Shown: one piece after another, positions 23,826 through 30,740 of the stretch | Layout: the number at the start of each line of letters is the position of its first letter | Numbering within the stretch: the first letter of the stretch is position 1 | From: Candidatus Nanopelagicales bacterium | GTDB lineage: Bacteria > Actinomycetota > Actinomycetes > S36-B12 | Length of the DNA stretch: 32,880 bases | Direction: 5' to 3' | NCBI GenBank assembly: GCA_030827125.1 | Contig: JAURFD010000006.1 | Coordinates: 117,680 to 150,559, forward strand | Translations under genes and position numbers: made by a program | Notes under the pieces: model-generated | Database searches by the model: none | Seen by the model: the letters and a program-made list of their open reading frames with translations, nothing else | Told to the model about the DNA's origin: nothing

Positions 23826-25253
23826 ATGCAGGCCTACGAGGGGGTGCCGGTGCCGTCAGAACAAATTCCGACCGACAACACCACGTGGCGTGACCCCAAG
23901 CGCTACCTGTGGATTCTCGGCGTCACCATGCCTCTCATCCCGTTCGCCGCGGTTGGACTCAACGCCTGGAGTGGCTGGGCCATCTGGCTGTGGCTCGGCC
24001 CCATCATCATCCTGGGTGTCGTCCCCCTCATCGATTGGACCGTGGGCCGGGACGCGGCCGGACCACCGGACGACGCGATCGCCCGACTCGAGGCGGACCG
24101 CTACTACCGCTGGCTGACCTACCTGTTCCTGCCGATCCAGTACGCCGGTTTCATCATCGCCTTCTGGTACCTCATGACAGCCGACCTGTCGACGCTGGAC
24201 CGCGTCGGCCTGGCGGTCACCGTTGGCTTCATCGGTGGCCTCGGGATCAACACGGCCCACGAGCTCGGGCACAAGAAGGAGTCGCACGAGCGGTGGCTGT
24301 CCAAGATCGCGCTCGCGCAGACCTTCTACGGCCACTTCTACATCGAGCACAACCGCGGACACCATGTCCGAGTAGCGACCCCGGACGATCCGGCGAGTTC
24401 GCGGGTGGGGGAGAGTTTTTATCGGTTCTGGCCCCGCACCGTCTTCGGTTCCTTGCGCAATGCGTGGCGGCTGGAGAAGCGGCGTTATGCACGGCGCGGC
24501 CAGCATCCATTCCGCCTCGGCAATGACGTGCTCAATGCCTTCGCCATGTCGGCGTTGCTCTGGGTGGTGCTCATCGTGTGGCTCGGTCCGGGCGTCATCC
24601 CCTATCTGCTCATCCAGGCACTCGTCGGCTTTACGCTCCTCGAAGCGGTGAATTACCTCGAGCACTACGGTCTGCTGCGGGAGATCGTCGGTGTTCCCGG
24701 CAAGGAGAGATTCGAGCGGGTCGAACCTCGACACAGCTGGAACTCCAACAACATAGCCACCAACGTGCTGCTCTATCACCTGCAGCGCCACAGTGACCAC
24801 CATGCGAATCCCACGCGCCGATACCAGGCTCTGCGCGACGAGGTCGATGCGCCGGTCCTGCCCACGGGCTACGCCGGCATGATCCTGCTGGCTCTCGTTC
24901 CCCCGATGTGGCGTCGCGTTATGGATCCGCGGGTGCTCGCGCACTACGACGGCAACATGGCACGCGCCAACATCGCACCGCACATGCGCACCAAGATGCT
25001 GCGTCGCTACCCCGACCCTGCTTCGACGTCGGTGACGAATGTCAAGGTCGTGGACATGTCCGTGTCCACCCTGCCCGGTCGTCCGGTGGTCCTGCAGTGC
25101 CCCGGTTGTGGCTACGAGTACGACGAGCGTCTCGGTGACGACCGCGAGGGCTTCCCCGCGGGCACCGCCTGGTCGATCATCCCCGCGGATTGGTGCTGTC
25201 CTGATTGCGGTGTCCGCGACAAGGCCGACTTCGTCGTACGCCTCAGCGACTGA
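23826..25253 (+). CDS. alkB: Alkane 1-monooxygenase fused to C-terminal rubredoxin
   Basis: A 475-residue membrane di-iron hydroxylase that inserts oxygen at the terminal carbon of alkanes, with its electron carrier attached. The three histidine clusters are HELGHKKESHERW (from residue 145), EHNRGHH (from 174) and LQRHSDHH (from 319), and the AlkB signature NYLEHYGL starts at 276. About six membrane segments are visible. The rubredoxin domain (about 420-475) has CPGC (425, 428) and CPDC (458, 461) as iron ligands. Such fusions are known in actinobacteria. A rubredoxin reductase is not encoded nearby. The ATG at 23826 lacks an SD; GTG at 23850 after GAGGGGG is an alternative start. Confidence 0.94.
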   Translation: MQAYEGVPVPSEQIPTDNTTWRDPKRYLWILGVTMPLIPFAAVGLNAWSGWAIWLWLGPIIILGVVPLIDWTVGRDAAGPPDDAIARLEADRYYRWLTYLFLPIQYAGFIIAFWYLMTADLSTLDRVGLAVTVGFIGGLGINTAHELGHKKESHERWLSKIALAQTFYGHFYIEHNRGHHVRVATPDDPASSRVGESFYRFWPRTVFGSLRNAWRLEKRRYARRGQHPFRLGNDVLNAFAMSALLWVVLIVWLGPGVIPYLLIQALVGFTLLEAVNYLEHYGLLREIVGVPGKERFERVEPRHSWNSNNIATNVLLYHLQRHSDHHANPTRRYQALRDEVDAPVLPTGYAGMILLALVPPMWRRVMDPRVLAHYDGNMARANIAPHMRTKMLRRYPDPASTSVTNVKVVDMSVSTLPGRPVVLQCPGCGYEYDERLGDDREGFPAGTAWSIIPADWCCPDCGVRDKADFVVRLSD

Positions 25254-25303: not shown

Positions 25304-25786
25304 ATGAGCGAACGAGCCGACGTCGTCGACACCGGACACAAGTACCGCCGCGCGGGGCGGATTGTCATCAATGCCCCGCAGCAGATGGTGTTCGACATCG
25401 TGGCCGATCCGAAGCGCCACGCGGAGATCGACGGCTCCGGCACGGTCAAGACCCCCACGTTCGCGCCGGACCGCCTCGCCAAAGGGGCGACGTTCGGGAT
25501 GGAGATGCGACTCGGTGTCCCCTACAAGATCAAGAACACGGTGGAGGAGTTCGACGAGTCCTCCCGCATCGCCTGGCGACACATCGGCCGTCATCGCTGG
25601 CGCTATGAGTTCCGCGCGATCGACGAGAACACCACTGAAGTGACGGAGACGTTCGACGGGTCCACCGCGATCTTTCCGCCCGCGCTCAACCTCATCAACG
25701 CCTACGACAACAATCAGACGGCCATCCTCAAAACGCTGGTGCGGCTTAAGGCGCTTGCCGAGCAGGAGGCCGCGACACCTGCCTAG
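25304..25786 (+). CDS. SRPBCC (START-like) family protein
   Basis: A 160-residue polyketide cyclase/dehydrase-like protein of the SRPBCC fold, a helix-grip with a hydrophobic ligand pocket. The pattern IVINAPQQMVFDIVADPKRHAEIDGSG is the typical N-terminal strand-helix; a Trp/Arg-rich core (RIAWRHIGRHRWRYEF) and TEVTETFDGS follow, and a long C-terminal helix ends the protein. There is no signal peptide. It follows alkB, so binding of a hydrophobic substrate or product is conceivable but not shown. Its stop shares CTAG with the convergent MFS gene. Confidence 0.88.
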   Translation: MSERADVVDTGHKYRRAGRIVINAPQQMVFDIVADPKRHAEIDGSGTVKTPTFAPDRLAKGATFGMEMRLGVPYKIKNTVEEFDESSRIAWRHIGRHRWRYEFRAIDENTTEVTETFDGSTAIFPPALNLINAYDNNQTAILKTLVRLKALAEQEAATPA

Positions 25787-26967
25787 GCGTCGATCATCGT
25801 GCCCTTGCGCAGCGGGATCATCGGGGGGATCTGAGTCACTGCGATGACCGCAAGGATGACGTAGACCGCGGTCCACGATGACGTGAGATCGAGAAGGAGC
25901 CCAGCCAGCGCGGGTCCGATCGCCGCGAGCAAGAAGGTGACGGTCAAGGCCATCGCGGTGAGGCGAGCCGATGCAGCCGCGTCATGCACGAATTCGCTCA
26001 GCATGGACAGGCTGATCGTGAATCCGCCGCTGTTGGCAAAGCCGAAGACGAAGACCACGAGCAATGTCGCGGTGTGCGGCGCGTAGGCGAGGAAAAGCAG
26101 AGGGACCACCGTGGCGATCGCGGTAGCGGCCCACAGGGTGCGTCGAGCAGAAATGCGCTGCCCCAGCCACGGCAGGAATACCGCCGCGAGGATGGGCGCG
26201 GCGGCAAAGACGCCGAAGAGCGCTCCGCTGGCTTCGGCACTCCAGCCGCGCTCCTCCAGCGACGGGGCGACCCACGCGAGAGCGGTGTAGAAGATGAGGG
26301 AGTTGATGGCGATGTACGCCGTCAACGCCCACGCTTTGCCGTCTCGCCAGGGCAGGTGCGAGACCCGCACGAGTCGGGGACCGGCGTCCATCTCGGGAGC
26401 GTTCGAACGTTCGGTGAGCGTCCACACGATGAGTCCGGCCACCGCGGGCAGTGCCCAGACGGCAAGGGCTACGGGCCACGACCCCGTCCACAGGGCGAGC
26501 GGGATAGTCAGCGCGGCGGCCAGCGAGGCTCCTACGAACATGACGGACGTCCACAGACCGGTGGCCGCTCCGGTGGATCGCGGCAATTGCTCGCGGACGA
26601 TGCCGGGGACCAGGCCGGTCGCGATCGCGATGCCGAACCCAGCGAGCACCGTGGTCACGAACAGTGTCCAGGGCCAGATGGCCAGCAGGCGCAGGCCGCT
26701 CGCAGCGATGAGCAAGATCAGGGCGAATGACACCGCACGTGTTCGGCCAAGCCGAGCCGCGACCGCCGGGACGATGAGTGCGGCCAAACCCATGACGACG
26801 AGGGGGAGCGTGGTGAGCAGTCCGATCACCGTGTCATTCCATCCAGTGTCCGACTGGATCTGCTCGGTGAGAGGTGGAATCGCGGTGAGGACAGCCCGCA
26901 GATTCACCGCGACGAGGGCGAGTGCGAGAAGTACGACCCACATGGGGCGCTGGTGGGCCGGGGGCAC
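25783..26967 (-). CDS. MFS transporter (CynX/NimT-like)
   Basis: A 394-residue, 12-helix major facilitator protein. It has the loop signature AARLGRTRAVSFAL between helices 2 and 3, and the opening LRAVLTAIPPLTEQIQSDTGW common in CynX/NimT-type carriers. The central loop is short and charged (TERSNAPEMDAGPRLVRV). The GTG at 26967 follows a minus-strand TAGATT by 6 nt. It lies 19 bp downstream of arsR on the same strand and may also be read from the arsR promoter, so an arsenical or related anion substrate is possible. Cyanate or a nitroimidazole-type substrate is the family-based alternative. Confidence 0.88.
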   Translation of the reverse strand: MPPAHQRPMWVVLLALALVAVNLRAVLTAIPPLTEQIQSDTGWNDTVIGLLTTLPLVVMGLAALIVPAVAARLGRTRAVSFALILLIAASGLRLLAIWPWTLFVTTVLAGFGIAIATGLVPGIVREQLPRSTGAATGLWTSVMFVGASLAAALTIPLALWTGSWPVALAVWALPAVAGLIVWTLTERSNAPEMDAGPRLVRVSHLPWRDGKAWALTAYIAINSLIFYTALAWVAPSLEERGWSAEASGALFGVFAAAPILAAVFLPWLGQRISARRTLWAATAIATVVPLLFLAYAPHTATLLVVFVFGFANSGGFTISLSMLSEFVHDAAASARLTAMALTVTFLLAAIGPALAGLLLDLTSSWTAVYVILAVIAVTQIPPMIPLRKGTMIDA

Positions 26968-26973
26968 CTGGTG

Positions 26974-26979
26974 AATCTA
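26974..26979 (-). promoter_or_regulatory. -10 element (TAGATT), leaderless start of MFS gene
   Basis: On the minus strand, TAGATT ends exactly 6 nt before the GTG at 26967. It sits between the arsR stop and the MFS start. No -35 is recognisable. Confidence 0.45.
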
Positions 26980-26986
26980 CTCGCGG

Positions 26987-27337
26987 CTAGGCAAAGACGG
27001 CGCCCAACTCCGACAGGCGCGTCGGCAGCAGGGAGTACCACGTCCAGTAGCCGCGCTTCTCGCGATCGACGATCCCGGCATCAAAGAGCACCTTGAGGTG
27101 GTGACTGACGGTGGGCTGACTCAGTCCCGTGGCGTCGGTGATATCACAGACGCATGAGGCGCAGTCGGGTGCGGCACGCAGGAGCGAGACGATCTGGAGT
27201 CGTGCCGGGTCGGCAACCGCCTTCATGAGTCGAGCCAGGTCGGTGGCGGACTCGCGATCCAGGGGAGATCCCAGACCGCCCGGGCAACAGGCGGGGCCCG
27301 CCACCGGGAGTTCATCAGGAGTTGTTGTTCGCGCCAC
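26987..27337 (-). CDS. arsR: ArsR family arsenic-responsive repressor
   Basis: A 116-residue winged-helix repressor. An N-terminal vicinal cysteine pair (ACCPG, Cys 17-18) and a Cys-rich segment before the recognition helices (DCASCVCDIT, Cys 59, 62, 64) resemble the type in Corynebacterium glutamicum ArsR, where an N-terminal Cys pair plus one further Cys bind As(III). The DNA-binding part reads LSQPTVSHHLKVLFDAGIV, followed by the wing KRGYWTWYSLLP. The GTG at 27337 is 6 nt after a CAATAT -10; the open frame upstream to 27742 is antisense to arsI and rejected. It is divergent from arsI, with the operator between them. Confidence 0.93.
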   Translation of the reverse strand: MARTTTPDELPVAGPACCPGGLGSPLDRESATDLARLMKAVADPARLQIVSLLRAAPDCASCVCDITDATGLSQPTVSHHLKVLFDAGIVDREKRGYWTWYSLLPTRLSELGAVFA

Positions 27338-27343
27338 GGATCC

Positions 27344-27375
27344 ATATTGACGTATATCGATACAGATGGCAAGGT
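27344..27375. promoter_or_regulatory. Interlocked divergent arsR and arsI promoters with TATCGATA operator
   Basis: Plus strand, arsI: TTGACG (27347-27352), 17-bp spacer, CAAGGT (27370-27375), then 7 nt to the ATG. Minus strand, arsR: TTGCCA (27372-27367), 17-bp spacer, CAATAT (27349-27344), then 6 nt to the GTG. Each -35 overlaps the other's -10. The perfect palindrome TATCGATA (27355-27362) sits in the shared spacer and fits an ArsR/SmtB operator core. Confidence 0.72.
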
Positions 27376-27382
27376 GTCGGGC

Positions 27383-27862
27383 ATGGAAAACGTCCTGCCG
27401 ACCTCCCGTGTCCAACTCGCCTTGAACGTCGCCGACCTCGAAGGTGCCATCGCCTTCTACTCGGCCATGTTCGGTGTGGAACCCCACAAGCGCCGCCCCG
27501 GCTACGCCAACTTCGTGGTCGATGTACCGCCGGTGAAGCTGGTCCTCATCGAGGTGCCGGCCGGGGATCGTGGCGAGGGACCCGTCGGCGCGCTGAATCA
27601 CCTTGGCGTCGAAGTATTCGATACCTCCGGCGTCCATGACGCTCGCACGCGTTTGAGCGATGCCGGACTCGCAACCTTTGACGAGACCGACACGACCTGC
27701 TGCTACGCATTGCAGGACAAGGTATGGGTACACGATCCCCATGGCACACCGTGGGAGGTGTACGTCGTCAAGGATGAGAACCCTGCGGACGCTCGCCCGG
27801 CGACGGCTTCTCTGCCGCTTCTTGAAGCGTCGACTCCTTGCTGCGCGTCACACGTGGAGTGA
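27383..27862 (+). CDS. arsI: ArsI-type C-As lyase (CadI/VOC family dioxygenase)
   Basis: A 159-residue vicinal-oxygen-chelate protein. ArsI cleaves the carbon-arsenic bond of trivalent organoarsenicals such as methylarsenite, giving As(III). Candidate Fe(II) ligands are Gln 11 (VQLALNV), His 73 (ALNHLGVEV) and Glu 125 (PWEVYVV), the Gln-His-Glu set known in Thermomonospora curvata ArsI. The substrate-binding vicinal cysteines are Cys 106-107 in TTCCYALQDKVWV. The ATG at 27383 is chosen because an in-frame TTG at 27347 lies inside the promoter. The older name CadI (cadmium-induced) covers the same family. First gene of the arsI-aquaporin-arsC unit. Confidence 0.92.
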   Translation: MENVLPTSRVQLALNVADLEGAIAFYSAMFGVEPHKRRPGYANFVVDVPPVKLVLIEVPAGDRGEGPVGALNHLGVEVFDTSGVHDARTRLSDAGLATFDETDTTCCYALQDKVWVHDPHGTPWEVYVVKDENPADARPATASLPLLEASTPCCASHVE

Positions 27863-27864
27863 TC

Positions 27865-28590
27865 ATGGCTGCTCCCATCCCGAGACGTCTCCTGGCGGAG
27901 TTCTTGGGCACCGCACTCCTCGTCGCTGCCGTGGTGGGCTCAGGCATCATGGGGGCTGCTCTCAGCGATGATCTCGCCGTCGTCTTGCTCGTCAATGCGG
28001 TGGCAACCGTAGCTGCTTTGGGGGTCCTGATCTGGATGCTCGGCCCCATCTCCGGAGCACACTTCAACCCATGTGTGACCGGGGTCGAGATGGCCAGGCG
28101 GGAGATCTCCGTGCCTCTCGGAGCGGCCTACGTCGCGGTTCAGATCGGTGGCGGGCTGGCCGGTGTCGCCCTGGCGAACGTGATGTTTGGCCTTGCCGCG
28201 TGGCACCCGTCGACGAATGTGCGCGAGGGAGCCGGCATCTGGCTCGGGGAAGTCGTCGCGACGGCGGGACTTCTCCTGGTGATCGGGGCGATCACGCGCA
28301 CGGGACATGGCACTCTCGGCCCGGCACTCGTGCCGGCATGGATTGGTTCGGCGTACTTCTTCACCGCCTCGACATCCTTTGCCAATCCGGCCGTCACCAT
28401 CGGTCGCAGCATGACCGATACCTTCACCGGAATCGCGCCGTCGTCAGTTCTCGTATTCATCGCCTTTCAGATCGTGGGAGCCGCGGTCGGTGCGCTGCTG
28501 ACGGAAGTCCTCTACCCCCGTAGGGGCCGCGTCCCCGAACCTCTCGACCTGCCCTATCCCGTCAACGATCCCGATCGGAGTTCGTCGTGA
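27865..28590 (+). CDS. MIP-family aquaporin/aquaglyceroporin in ars operon (AqpS-like context)
   Basis: A 241-residue channel with six helices and two half-helices. The first pore motif is altered to NPC (HFNPCVT, residues 68-70); the second is NPA (FANPAVT, 174-176). In Sinorhizobium meliloti an aquaglyceroporin (AqpS) in the ars operon lets As(III) produced by ArsC leave the cell down its gradient; the neighbours here suggest the same use. The ATG at 27865 lies 2 nt after the arsI stop, with GGAG upstream. Its TGA overlaps the arsC GTG (GTGA). A Cys in the pore loop is notable because arsenite and methylarsenite bind thiols. Confidence 0.9.
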   Translation: MAAPIPRRLLAEFLGTALLVAAVVGSGIMGAALSDDLAVVLLVNAVATVAALGVLIWMLGPISGAHFNPCVTGVEMARREISVPLGAAYVAVQIGGGLAGVALANVMFGLAAWHPSTNVREGAGIWLGEVVATAGLLLVIGAITRTGHGTLGPALVPAWIGSAYFFTASTSFANPAVTIGRSMTDTFTGIAPSSVLVFIAFQIVGAAVGALLTEVLYPRRGRVPEPLDLPYPVNDPDRSSS

Positions 28591-28988
28591 CCGATACACC
28601 AACCGTCCTCTTCGTCTGCGTGCACAACGCTGGACGGTCGCAGATGGCTGCGGGCTATCTGCGACATCTCGGTGGGGATCGCGTGGAGGTGCTCTCGGCT
28701 GGATCGATGCCCGCTGATCAGATCAACCCGGCCGTCGTCGAGGTGATGCTCGAGGAGGGCATCGATATCCGCGCCGAGGTGCCCAAGGTGCTGACGACCG
28801 ATTCCGTCCAGGAGTCCGACGTCGTCATCACGATGGGATGCGGCGACGTCTGTCCGATCTTCCCCGGCAAGCGCTATGAGGACTGGCAGTTGGAGGATCC
28901 CGCCGGTCAAGGCGCTGACGCCATCCGGCTGATCCGCAACGAGATTCGCCAGCGCATCGAAGGTCTATTGGCACAGCTGCTCGGTTAG
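28587..28988 (+). CDS. arsC: Arsenate reductase (LMW-PTP type, probably mycothiol-dependent)
   Basis: A 133-residue low-molecular-weight phosphatase-fold enzyme reducing As(V) to As(III). The nucleophile loop CVHNAGRS (Cys 11, Arg 17) is near the N-terminus and the segment TMGCGDVCPIFPGKRYEDW is typical of actinobacterial arsenate-mycothiol transferases; the acidic general-acid site is EDPAG. The thioredoxin-type triple-cysteine arrangement is less clear, so mycothiol use is inferred from family resemblance. Coupled to the aquaporin gene by GTGA, which links As(III) production to its exit. Confidence 0.93.
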   Translation: MTDTPTVLFVCVHNAGRSQMAAGYLRHLGGDRVEVLSAGSMPADQINPAVVEVMLEEGIDIRAEVPKVLTTDSVQESDVVITMGCGDVCPIFPGKRYEDWQLEDPAGQGADAIRLIRNEIRQRIEGLLAQLLG

Positions 28989-29046: not shown

Positions 29047-30324
29047 GTGCCCCTGACGCTCACACCTGAGGAAGAGGCCATGCTCGCGGGGGAGCACGGG
29101 CCTGCGATCGCGCTCTCCATGCGCATCATCACCGAACTCGGCCGCATTCGCGGCGCGGAGGAACTCGTCGACATCGAATCCGTACATATCGACGGCTGCA
29201 TCTTCTACGGCCAGGCCGGACTGGACTTCGCCCAGAAGCTCGTTGCACTCGGCGGCCAGGTCAAGGTCCCCACGACGGTCAACGTCGGCTCGGTCGACCT
29301 GATTCATCCGACTCTCATCCTGCAGAACAATGACCGCGAGAAGTGGGTCTACCAGGGTGGCCGGGATCTCATGCAGGCCTACGTCGATCTCGGCTGCCGC
29401 CAGACCTGGACGTGTGCGCCGTACCAAATGGACTCGCGCCCGGACGTCGGCGCCAACATCGCGTGGGCGGAGTCCAACGCCATCGTCTTCGCCAACTCGG
29501 TCCTCGGGGCACGCACCGACCGTTACGGCGATTTCGTCGATATTGCCGCGGCGATCACCGGCAAGGCCCCCCGCGGCGGCCTGCACTTGGATGCAGAGCG
29601 TCACGGTGATGTCGTCCTGGACTGCACCAGCCTCTCGCCCGAGTCGCTCGCACTCGATGTCACCTATCCGGTGCTCGGCTATCTCGCAGGTGCCATCGCC
29701 GGTACGACGAATCCGGTGCTGGTGGGCATCCCGTCGGATGTGTCGGAAGACAGTCTCAAGGCCGTGGGAGCAGCGGCAGCCTCATCAGGCGGCGTCGCTC
29801 TTTTCCACGTTGTCGGCCGCACGCCTGAAGCCCCCACGTTGGACGCCGCCCTTGGCCCCCACATCAACGCACCCGTGCACCACATCACCCCCCAGCGGCT
29901 CAATGCCGCTCGCCAGGAACTCTCGACGGCGCGTGAGGACAAACTCGACGCGGTGAGCCTGGGCACTCCCCACGCTTCCGTCGATGAGATCGGTGAGGCG
30001 TACGACGCCATCATTGGTGGACCGGCGCTGTCTGACGGTGTTGCCTTCTACATCTCAACCGGTCGGTCGGTTTTCGCGGAGGCGGATCGGCGCGGCTGGG
30101 TGAAACCGCTTGAAGAGTGGGGCGTGACCTTCGTGCTTGACACCTGCACCTATGTCACGTCAATCCTGCGGCCCGGTACCCGCACGGTCATGACCAACTC
30201 CGGCAAGTGGGCGCACTATGCGCCCGGCAACATGGGCGTCGACGTCGTCCTCGCCACCCTGGGGGAGTGTGTCGAGTCGGCCACGACCGGCCGCGTGACC
30301 TGGAACCGGGAGCTCTTCACATGA
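29047..30324 (+). CDS. Aconitase X catalytic (large) subunit
   Basis: A 425-residue AcnX (DUF521) protein, a separate aconitase-superfamily branch. Characteristic stretches are LTPEEEAMLAGEHGPA at the N-terminus, SVHIDGCIFYGQAGLDF, the Cys-bearing TWTCAPYQ, ESNAIVFANSVLGARTDRYGDF and FVLDTCTYVTSIL. In bacteria, two-subunit AcnX enzymes characterised so far are cis-3-hydroxy-L-proline dehydratases; in archaea, AcnX makes trans-anhydromevalonate phosphate. The first is more likely here but no proline racemase or pyrroline reductase is adjacent. ATGA overlap with the small subunit shows the two chains are made together. Confidence 0.92.
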   Translation: MPLTLTPEEEAMLAGEHGPAIALSMRIITELGRIRGAEELVDIESVHIDGCIFYGQAGLDFAQKLVALGGQVKVPTTVNVGSVDLIHPTLILQNNDREKWVYQGGRDLMQAYVDLGCRQTWTCAPYQMDSRPDVGANIAWAESNAIVFANSVLGARTDRYGDFVDIAAAITGKAPRGGLHLDAERHGDVVLDCTSLSPESLALDVTYPVLGYLAGAIAGTTNPVLVGIPSDVSEDSLKAVGAAAASSGGVALFHVVGRTPEAPTLDAALGPHINAPVHHITPQRLNAARQELSTAREDKLDAVSLGTPHASVDEIGEAYDAIIGGPALSDGVAFYISTGRSVFAEADRRGWVKPLEEWGVTFVLDTCTYVTSILRPGTRTVMTNSGKWAHYAPGNMGVDVVLATLGECVESATTGRVTWNRELFT

Positions 30325-30740
30325 CCACGATCACGGGCTGGCGTGTGACCTCCGGCGAAGCCGAGGGCGCGGTACTCAAACTCGATGCGCCCGTGTCCTT
30401 CTGGGGGGGTATCGGCCCCGAAGGCGACATCATCGATGTCCATCACCCGCAGCACGGGGCGGTCGTCACCGGACACATCCTGGTGATGCGCTCGGGCCGC
30501 GGATCGAGCTCGGGGACCTACGTTCTCGCCGAACTGCTCCGCCTGGGCATTGCCCCTGCCGGCATCATCCTCACCGAACCCGATGGCATCATCGCCACCG
30601 GCGCGCTTGTCGCCGCAGAGTTGTACGACGCCCGCATGCCGATCGTCACGGTGAGTGATGAGGATTACGCCCGCATCGAGGACGGCGTAACCGTGTCGAT
30701 TGAAATGAATGGCGATAACGCTCTCCTCACTATCAACTGA
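30321..30740 (+). CDS. Aconitase X swivel (small) subunit
   Basis: A 139-residue DUF126-type swivel domain that completes the AcnX active site. Family motifs are GEAEGAVLKLDAPVSFWGGI, GHILVMRSGRGSSSGTYVLAELL (catalytic Ser region) and PDGIIATGALVAAELYDARMPIV. The ATG lies inside the stop of the large subunit (ATGA). The acetyltransferase gene follows after 14 bp on the same strand. Confidence 0.93.
   Translation: MTTITGWRVTSGEAEGAVLKLDAPVSFWGGIGPEGDIIDVHHPQHGAVVTGHILVMRSGRGSSSGTYVLAELLRLGIAPAGIILTEPDGIIATGALVAAELYDARMPIVTVSDEDYARIEDGVTVSIEMNGDNALLTIN

Follow-up and report, generated by a model that had tools for sequence, protein, structure and literature searches.

A probable pump-free, AqpS-type arsenic operon with an adjoining MFS transporter gene in a Candidatus Nanopelagicales bacterium

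In arsenic (ars) operons, a channel standing where the arsenic pump would be is a known but uncommon arrangement. Wu et al. 2010 reportedly described an actinobacterial aquaglyceroporin-ArsC fusion in Salinispora tropica. This fusion is cited in the available text of PMC6205960, PMC12838822 and PMC9775063, the first of which also covers AqpS of Sinorhizobium meliloti. According to the accessible part of PMC4531530, Frankia carries aqpS together with arsR, arsC2 and cadI, and the hosts are arsenate-resistant and arsenite-sensitive. Here we analysed a stretch of 32,880 nucleotides from a Candidatus Nanopelagicales bacterium (assembly GCA_030827125.1, contig JAURFD010000006.1, positions 117,680 to 150,559), hereafter the window, in which five genes at 25783-28988 form a cluster of this kind with an extra transporter gene added. 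We consider it highly likely that the cluster is an arsR-controlled AqpS-type arsenic detoxification operon that works without a pump. Since S. meliloti AqpS, the S. tropica fusion and the Frankia set of aqpS with arsR, arsC2 and cadI have already been described, the core of the operon is not new in kind.

A preliminary description of this DNA had listed genes for a transporter of the major facilitator superfamily (MFS), ArsR, ArsI, an aquaporin and ArsC. The genes and their order were confirmed, and the features, with family-model scores given against the respective cut-offs, are as follows.

25783-26967, minus strand: MFS transporter (mfs), CynX/NimT-like (Pfam MFS_1, 104.6 bits against 33.4), probably the second gene of an arsR-mfs unit
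26987-27337, minus strand: ArsR repressor, 116 amino acids (HTH_5, 61.6 bits; NF033788, 87.2 bits against 55)
27345-27361, no strand: candidate ArsR operator in the stretch separating the divergent arsR and arsI, an inverted repeat ATTGA-N6-TCGAT
27383-27862, plus strand: ArsI C-As lyase, 159 amino acids (NF041414 ArsI_CadI_VOC, 174.1 bits against 116)
27865-28590, plus strand: AqpS-family channel (aqp), 241 amino acids (Pfam MIP, 85.1 bits against 25)
28587-28988, plus strand: ArsC arsenate reductase of the low-molecular-weight phosphatase kind (Pfam LMWPc, 79.5 bits against 23.2)

The genes are tightly packed, with 19 bp from arsR to mfs, 2 bp from arsI to aqp, and a 4-bp overlap (GTGA, 28587-28590) between aqp and arsC. 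Because all five proteins exceed the Pfam gathering scores and the five-gene block is kept in another species of the genus (G397; G numbers denote genomes, G000 being the own genome, L numbers loci, and C after a colon a contig), the cluster is more than a chance assembly. The Gln/His/Glu set and Cys pair attributed earlier to ArsI are present as Gln11, His73, Glu125 and Cys106-Cys107, each facing the same letter in the alignment with PDB 5c4p (E 1.1e-41), which we take to be Thermomonospora curvata ArsI; Gln, His and Glu are presumably the ligands. A role of Cys98-99 of ArsI is described in the available text of PMC6514093. ArsC has the C-x5-R loop CVHNAGR and cysteines at positions 11, 85 and 89; its top structure match was 3t38 (E 1.8e-42), and it matched the NCBIfam arsenate-reductase models at scores that all lay below their cut-offs. 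The top structure match of ArsR, which has a GTG start and is apparently leaderless, was the ArsR 6j0e.

The preliminary description had found no ArsB or Acr3 in the window and had called for a search of the whole genome. Both the absence and its extension were borne out: in the own genome (2,597,045 bases in 82 contigs, 97.2% complete), PF01758 (SBF, presumably the family containing Acr3), PF02040 (ArsB) and TIGR00832 (Acr3) had no match at E<=0.001, while in 14 control genomes the three models matched in 12, 6 and 7, respectively. Protein searches of the own genome with the window channel returned only the channel itself, and no second major intrinsic protein (MIP) was found.

We then compared the distribution of channel and pump across the bacterial family. 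Among 59 family genomes, the ars-type channel was found in 32 and Acr3 in 27; 25 genomes had the channel only, 20 Acr3 only, 7 both and 7 neither (Fisher p 7.8e-5, a value that overstates independence because the genomes are related). The 37 genomes that were at least 90% complete were also counted (17 channel only, 10 Acr3 only, 6 both, 4 neither; p 0.015), and a within-genus permutation gave 10.6 genomes expected to have both, against 7 observed (p 0.014). In these counts, channel matches with E above 1e-25 were treated as other MIPs, the E values jumping from 1.5e-29 to 1.5e-13. Some of the 32 channel genomes were counted on matches that have in-frame stops or are split in two (G186, G352, G358, G375), and in two of the 27 Acr3 genomes (G380, G388) the match is partial and does not reach the cut-off. 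In some loci the two transporters also occupy the same slot. In the order arsR/arsI-X-arsC, X is the channel in the window and in L032, L041, L043, L141 and L148, and in the order arsR(divergent)-arsI-X-arsC it is Acr3 in L147, L175, L177, L181, L184 and L186, that is, in 6 of 23 Acr3 loci. Around 80 named channel homologues from public genomes, ArsC was found within 5 kb in 66, ArsR in 42 and ArsI in 15, and a tblastn search with one Acr3 found no Acr3 within that distance, some of the loci being cut by contig ends.

Replacement of the pump by a channel is known at the level of the operon from PMC4435449, the available text of which describes 18 of 18 ars-operon MIPs as standing alone; the family counts extend it, as a tendency, to whole genomes. 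Exit of As(III) by the channel, as with AqpS, had been suggested beforehand, and the missing genomic pump, the tendency of channel and Acr3 to alternate, and the fact that an MIP from an S. meliloti ars cluster is 50% identical all support it. L032 (G194) and L148 (G368) belong to different genera, and their ars blocks are about 99% identical in DNA, over two matching stretches, of 6.8 kb and 4.0 kb, that are separated by a break; this identity reflects either recent transfer or shared contamination.

Channel-type and Acr3-type clusters appear to have a common, predicted ArsR operator. The pattern ATNGA-N6-TCNAT precedes arsR in 19 of 21 channel-type loci and in all 16 Acr3-type loci, against shuffle means of 0.015 and 0.02. 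A locus was counted if 60 bases or more lay upstream and ArsR identity reached 50%; a usable arsR was available in 21 of the 31 channel-type loci and in 16 of the 22 Acr3-type ones. The pattern was missed in L032 and L148, whose DNA is nearly identical. The only cysteines of the window ArsR are at 17, 18, 59, 62 and 64. Among 39 ArsR matches including that of the window, Cys62 was kept in 39, Cys64 in 35 and Cys59 in 24, and among the 37 that cover positions 17 and 18, Cys17 was kept in 37 and Cys18 in 34. In the available text of PMC6514093, methylarsenite (MAs(III)) sensing by ArsR is tied to a C-terminal Cys pair, Cys101-102. The cysteine listing of the window ArsR holds no such pair, which argues mildly against a response specific to organoarsenicals.

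From this gene content we infer the following working. Without arsenic, ArsR on the one operator between arsR and arsI would repress both divergent units, and As(III) bound by its cysteines would release it from the operator. Arsenate (As(V)) would enter as a phosphate analogue and be reduced to As(III) by ArsC, and ArsI would cleave methylarsenite to As(III). As(OH)3 would then leave down its gradient through the AqpS-type channel, which would be made next to ArsC from the overlapping genes, and mfs would probably be co-transcribed with arsR. A cell of this kind would be expected to resist As(V) and MAs(III) and to be sensitive to As(III) from outside.

The following points weigh against a pump-free AqpS-type operon. 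A pump could sit in the missing part of the genome, nearly 3%, and could have been overlooked because the genome is 97.2% complete. Seven of the 59 family genomes have channel and Acr3 together, once in a single island (L034). The operator pattern was derived from the same loci in which it was counted, so the one match of its stricter form ATNGAYNNNNGTCRATA in the own genome, at window 27345-27361 (control pattern, 0), speaks for specificity rather than for an independent discovery. In addition, an ArsP_1-family permease exceeds its cut-off elsewhere in the own genome (L145, G000:C82, about 96.65-97.78 kb). A second membrane protein follows this permease, and nearby genes were read as encoding a zinc-type ABC permease and a regulator of the Fur/Zur kind. 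Judged by these neighbours, the permease is possibly zinc-related, and it was left out of the count of arsenic exporters, a role that is nevertheless not disproved.

The window cluster is a clear instance of a passive channel that seems to do duty for an active arsenic pump throughout a genome and not merely in one operon. The pump is common in the same family (27 of 59 genomes), and the common slot and operator make a direct comparison of channel and pump in one operon possible.

The best NCBIfam match of the mfs product was TIGR00896 CynX, at 217.9 bits and below the cut-off of 406 for CynX/NimT membership. Among its Pfam and NCBIfam matches there was none to an ArsJ/ArsK/ArsQ-type family, names that we take to be those of arsenical MFS families, the existence of such models in the libraries being unchecked. 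ArsJ is named in the available text of PMC6205960. In the genus, 6 of 11 genomes carry mfs, and arsR adjoins it in four of the six, at gaps of 19 bp (window), 19 bp (G397), 23 bp (G383) and 24 bp (G247). G397 has mfs with the full block including the channel genes. In G383, an arsR-mfs contig and an arsR-aqp contig both break off within arsR in identical sequence, which makes it most likely that mfs-arsR faces aqp-arsC there too. In G247, mfs is open (395 amino acids), while no ArsR frame of at least 100 amino acids is listed, the operator pattern is missing and arsI-aqp-arsC is absent. No arsR accompanies mfs in the available stretch of G396 (a contig of 4.4 kb) or of G371.

Outside the genus, no match to the window ArsR lay near the gene in 19 order loci (1 of 20 with G247 included), and in the class loci an ArsR match lay near an mfs homologue in 2 of 20, both weak (35-37%). 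Distant MFS homologues (32-33%) at L305 and L307, from two genomes of one other family, adjoin an ArsR-family gene (35-37% to the window ArsR). No homologue of the window MFS was found within 5 kb of the 80 named channel genes, in the other 39 of 40 channel loci of the G-numbered genomes, in 3 plasmid loci, or in 20 further channel loci (L148-L167), several of which are cut by contig ends. An aquaporin beside a distant MFS homologue at the class locus L290 proved to be of the canonical NPAR kind, outside the AqpS-type family. The preliminary description had proposed the MFS gene 19 bp behind arsR as an additional exporter, perhaps for an organic arsenical, and had asked for its conservation in ars-linked aquaporin clusters. 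Adjacency and co-orientation held up, the organic-arsenical exporter was not supported, and no conservation was found at the channel genes examined outside the genus. MFS genes do occur in ars operons, and Table 2 of PMC4435449 pairs them only with ArsB or ArsY; a channel accompanied by an MFS but by neither ArsB nor Acr3 does not appear in the available text of that survey, and the accessible parts of the literature searched held no report of MFS and channel in one ars cluster.

These data bear on two readings of mfs. It may be a resident of the alkB locus that transports some other solute, with arsR a mere neighbour and read-through from arsR carrying no arsenic function; we regard the chances of this as even. 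In G000, G397, G383, G247 and G396 an alkane-hydroxylase-like gene adjoins mfs, in G396 without an arsR match on its short contig, and G247 has an open mfs with arsI-aqp-arsC, the operator pattern and a listed ArsR frame all missing. However, G347 has the alkB site without mfs and G371 has mfs without alkB in the available stretch, so mfs is not tied to alkB either, and four genomes have preserved the short distance from arsR to mfs. Alternatively, mfs may be active in the system as an ArsR-controlled exporter of an arsenical (inorganic arsenic, methylarsenite or an organic product) that complements the passive channel. This is possible but somewhat doubtful: the shared strand and the gap of 19-24 bp in four of six carriers, the company of the NPC channel cluster in G397 and G383 (in the latter resting on two contigs) and the precedent of MFS genes in ars operons speak for it, while the absence of homologues at channel loci outside the genus, the orthologues of G396 and G371 without arsR, the rarity of ArsR near mfs in order (1 of 20, G247) and class (2 of 20) loci, the canonical NPAR aquaporin at L290 and the CynX-like family match speak against it. 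We conclude that mfs is a genus-level neighbour likely to be co-transcribed with arsR, and, judged from its sequence context, a possible participant in arsenic handling.

At the alkB locus itself, window 23826-25253 encodes, by Pfam, an alkane-hydroxylase-like desaturase whose C-terminus carries a fused rubredoxin domain. In G347, of the same genus, arsR-acr3-arsC adjoins alkB (L146, G347:C4), the neighbour of the channel cluster in the window, and in this genus ars genes seem to recur beside alkB. On the other side of the cluster, window 29047-30740 encodes an aconitase X large subunit (425 amino acids) with a presumed small subunit at its end. Full-length matches in 5 relatives are 86-91% identical; at L094, aconitase X lies downstream of genes read as glutamine-synthetase-like and aldehyde dehydrogenase.

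The pore of the channel departs from the canonical one at two places. Its first motif is NPC (N68-P69-C70), its second is NPA (N174-P175-A176), and Val stands at the place of the filter arginine, three residues after the Asn of the second motif; the canonical arginine is named as Arg206 for GlpF in the available text of PMC4734766. In 138 distinct matched channels, two of which are truncated ahead of the second motif, this place was occupied by V in 121, I in 13, A in 2 and Arg in none of the 136 readable sequences, against Arg in 20 of 20 other aquaporins from family genomes. A profile comparison aligned NPAV with NPAR. In an AlphaFold model from 33 sequences (mean predicted local distance difference test score, pLDDT, 90.1; 6 of 38 candidate stretches omitted from the alignment for in-frame stops), half-helices span 69-77 and 175-181, the second starting at Pro175. 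A phmmer alignment that placed GRS against NPARS was rejected because half-helix HE starts at Pro175 in the model and the profile pairs NPAV with NPAR, and a single-sequence fold (pLDDT 49) was not used. The modelled fold is that of an ordinary aquaporin: the best VIA-align row was 7cjs_C (Z 26.6, root-mean-square deviation 2.1, 201 aligned), with many rows only 1 to 3 Z lower. Chains of human AQP11 and Trypanosoma brucei AQP2 were absent among the 50 matches listed, which is uninformative on kinship.

Arginine loss should, by analogy, give a wider and less polar pore mouth. In the available text of the two sources, human AQP11 has NPC, Leu for the filter Arg and a narrowest pore of 4 A (PMC12857728), and T. 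brucei AQP2 has Leu for the filter Arg and a constriction that is virtually absent (PMC4734766). Loss of the filter arginine can therefore accompany a wider pore, and the same may apply to the bacterial channel. The literature searched, in its accessible parts and with Wu et al. 2010 excluded, held no report of a missing filter arginine in AqpS.

NPC behaved differently from the arginine. The first-motif residue after NP was V in 78, A in 45, L in 9, C in 5 and I in 1 of the 138 channels. NPC was found in six genomes (G000, G397, G194, G368, G383, G377), which hold the six closest channels found. In the channel that follows them in closeness (G390, L163), at 76-77% in a partial match, the motif is already NPA. 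The NPC motif pointed out in the preliminary description is present, then, but it marks one small clade; its Cys is not conserved in ars-linked aquaporins, and we rejected it as the key pore feature of the family. What stands out family-wide is the loss of the filter arginine, and this loss suggests a testable basis of selectivity that NPC does not offer.

A broader reading would make the AqpS family a distinct arginine-less class that evolved for metalloid hydroxides, has the width to pass As(OH)3 as well as methylarsonous acid and swaps freely with Acr3 under the common ArsR operator, supplemented in this genus by a gained, ArsR-controlled MFS exporting the arsenical that the channel cannot clear; taken as a whole, we consider it unlikely. 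That the NPC cysteine itself works in the pore, as a ligand or gate for As(III), is very improbable, for although all six genomes with the closest channels have it and human AQP11 likewise combines NPC with a lost filter arginine (PMC12857728, available text), it occurs in just 5 of 138 distinct channels, gives way to NPA in the next closest, and is to be counted once for G194 and G368 because their DNA is nearly identical.

The channel is of AqpS type by its MIP fold, its kinship to the S. meliloti ars-cluster MIP, and its company of arsR and arsC without ArsB or Acr3. In the S. meliloti AqpS ars operon a channel likewise replaces the pump near arsR and arsC. The MIP of the S. meliloti plasmid ars cluster (L071), a plasmid copy and not the characterised chromosomal AqpS, is the one 50% identical to the window channel and, like it, carries Val where the filter arginine would be, but it has NPA and arsH, whereas the window has NPC, arsI, the aqp/arsC overlap and the extra MFS. 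Two NPA motifs are reported for the 18 ars-operon MIPs in the available text of PMC4435449; the first motif of the window channel is NPC instead, and the two-NPA feature does not define the larger channel family, because NPA occurs in just 45 of 138 distinct relatives. The Frankia aqpS clusters have the same four functions, CadI and ArsI both falling within NF041414, and differ by the extra MFS of the window, an MFS being unmentioned, and the motifs of the channel likewise, in the available text of PMC4531530. The S. tropica fusion resembles the window in that the channel and a phosphatase-type ArsC are made together, channel first, but it is one polypeptide, while the window has two frames with the 4-bp overlap. 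The arsR-arsI-acr3-arsC operons of the family have the same order, ArsR proteins 57-75% identical, homologous ArsI and ArsC and the same operator pattern, with the Acr3 pump at the place of the window channel. Human AQP11 and T. brucei AQP2 share with the window channel an aliphatic residue for the filter arginine, and AQP11 also NPC (PMC12857728 and PMC4734766, available text), a likeness of the pore only, in unrelated physiology. To these systems the present analysis adds the tendency of channel and Acr3 to replace each other within the family, the common operator predicted for both, the missing filter arginine and the genus-level mfs linked to arsR.

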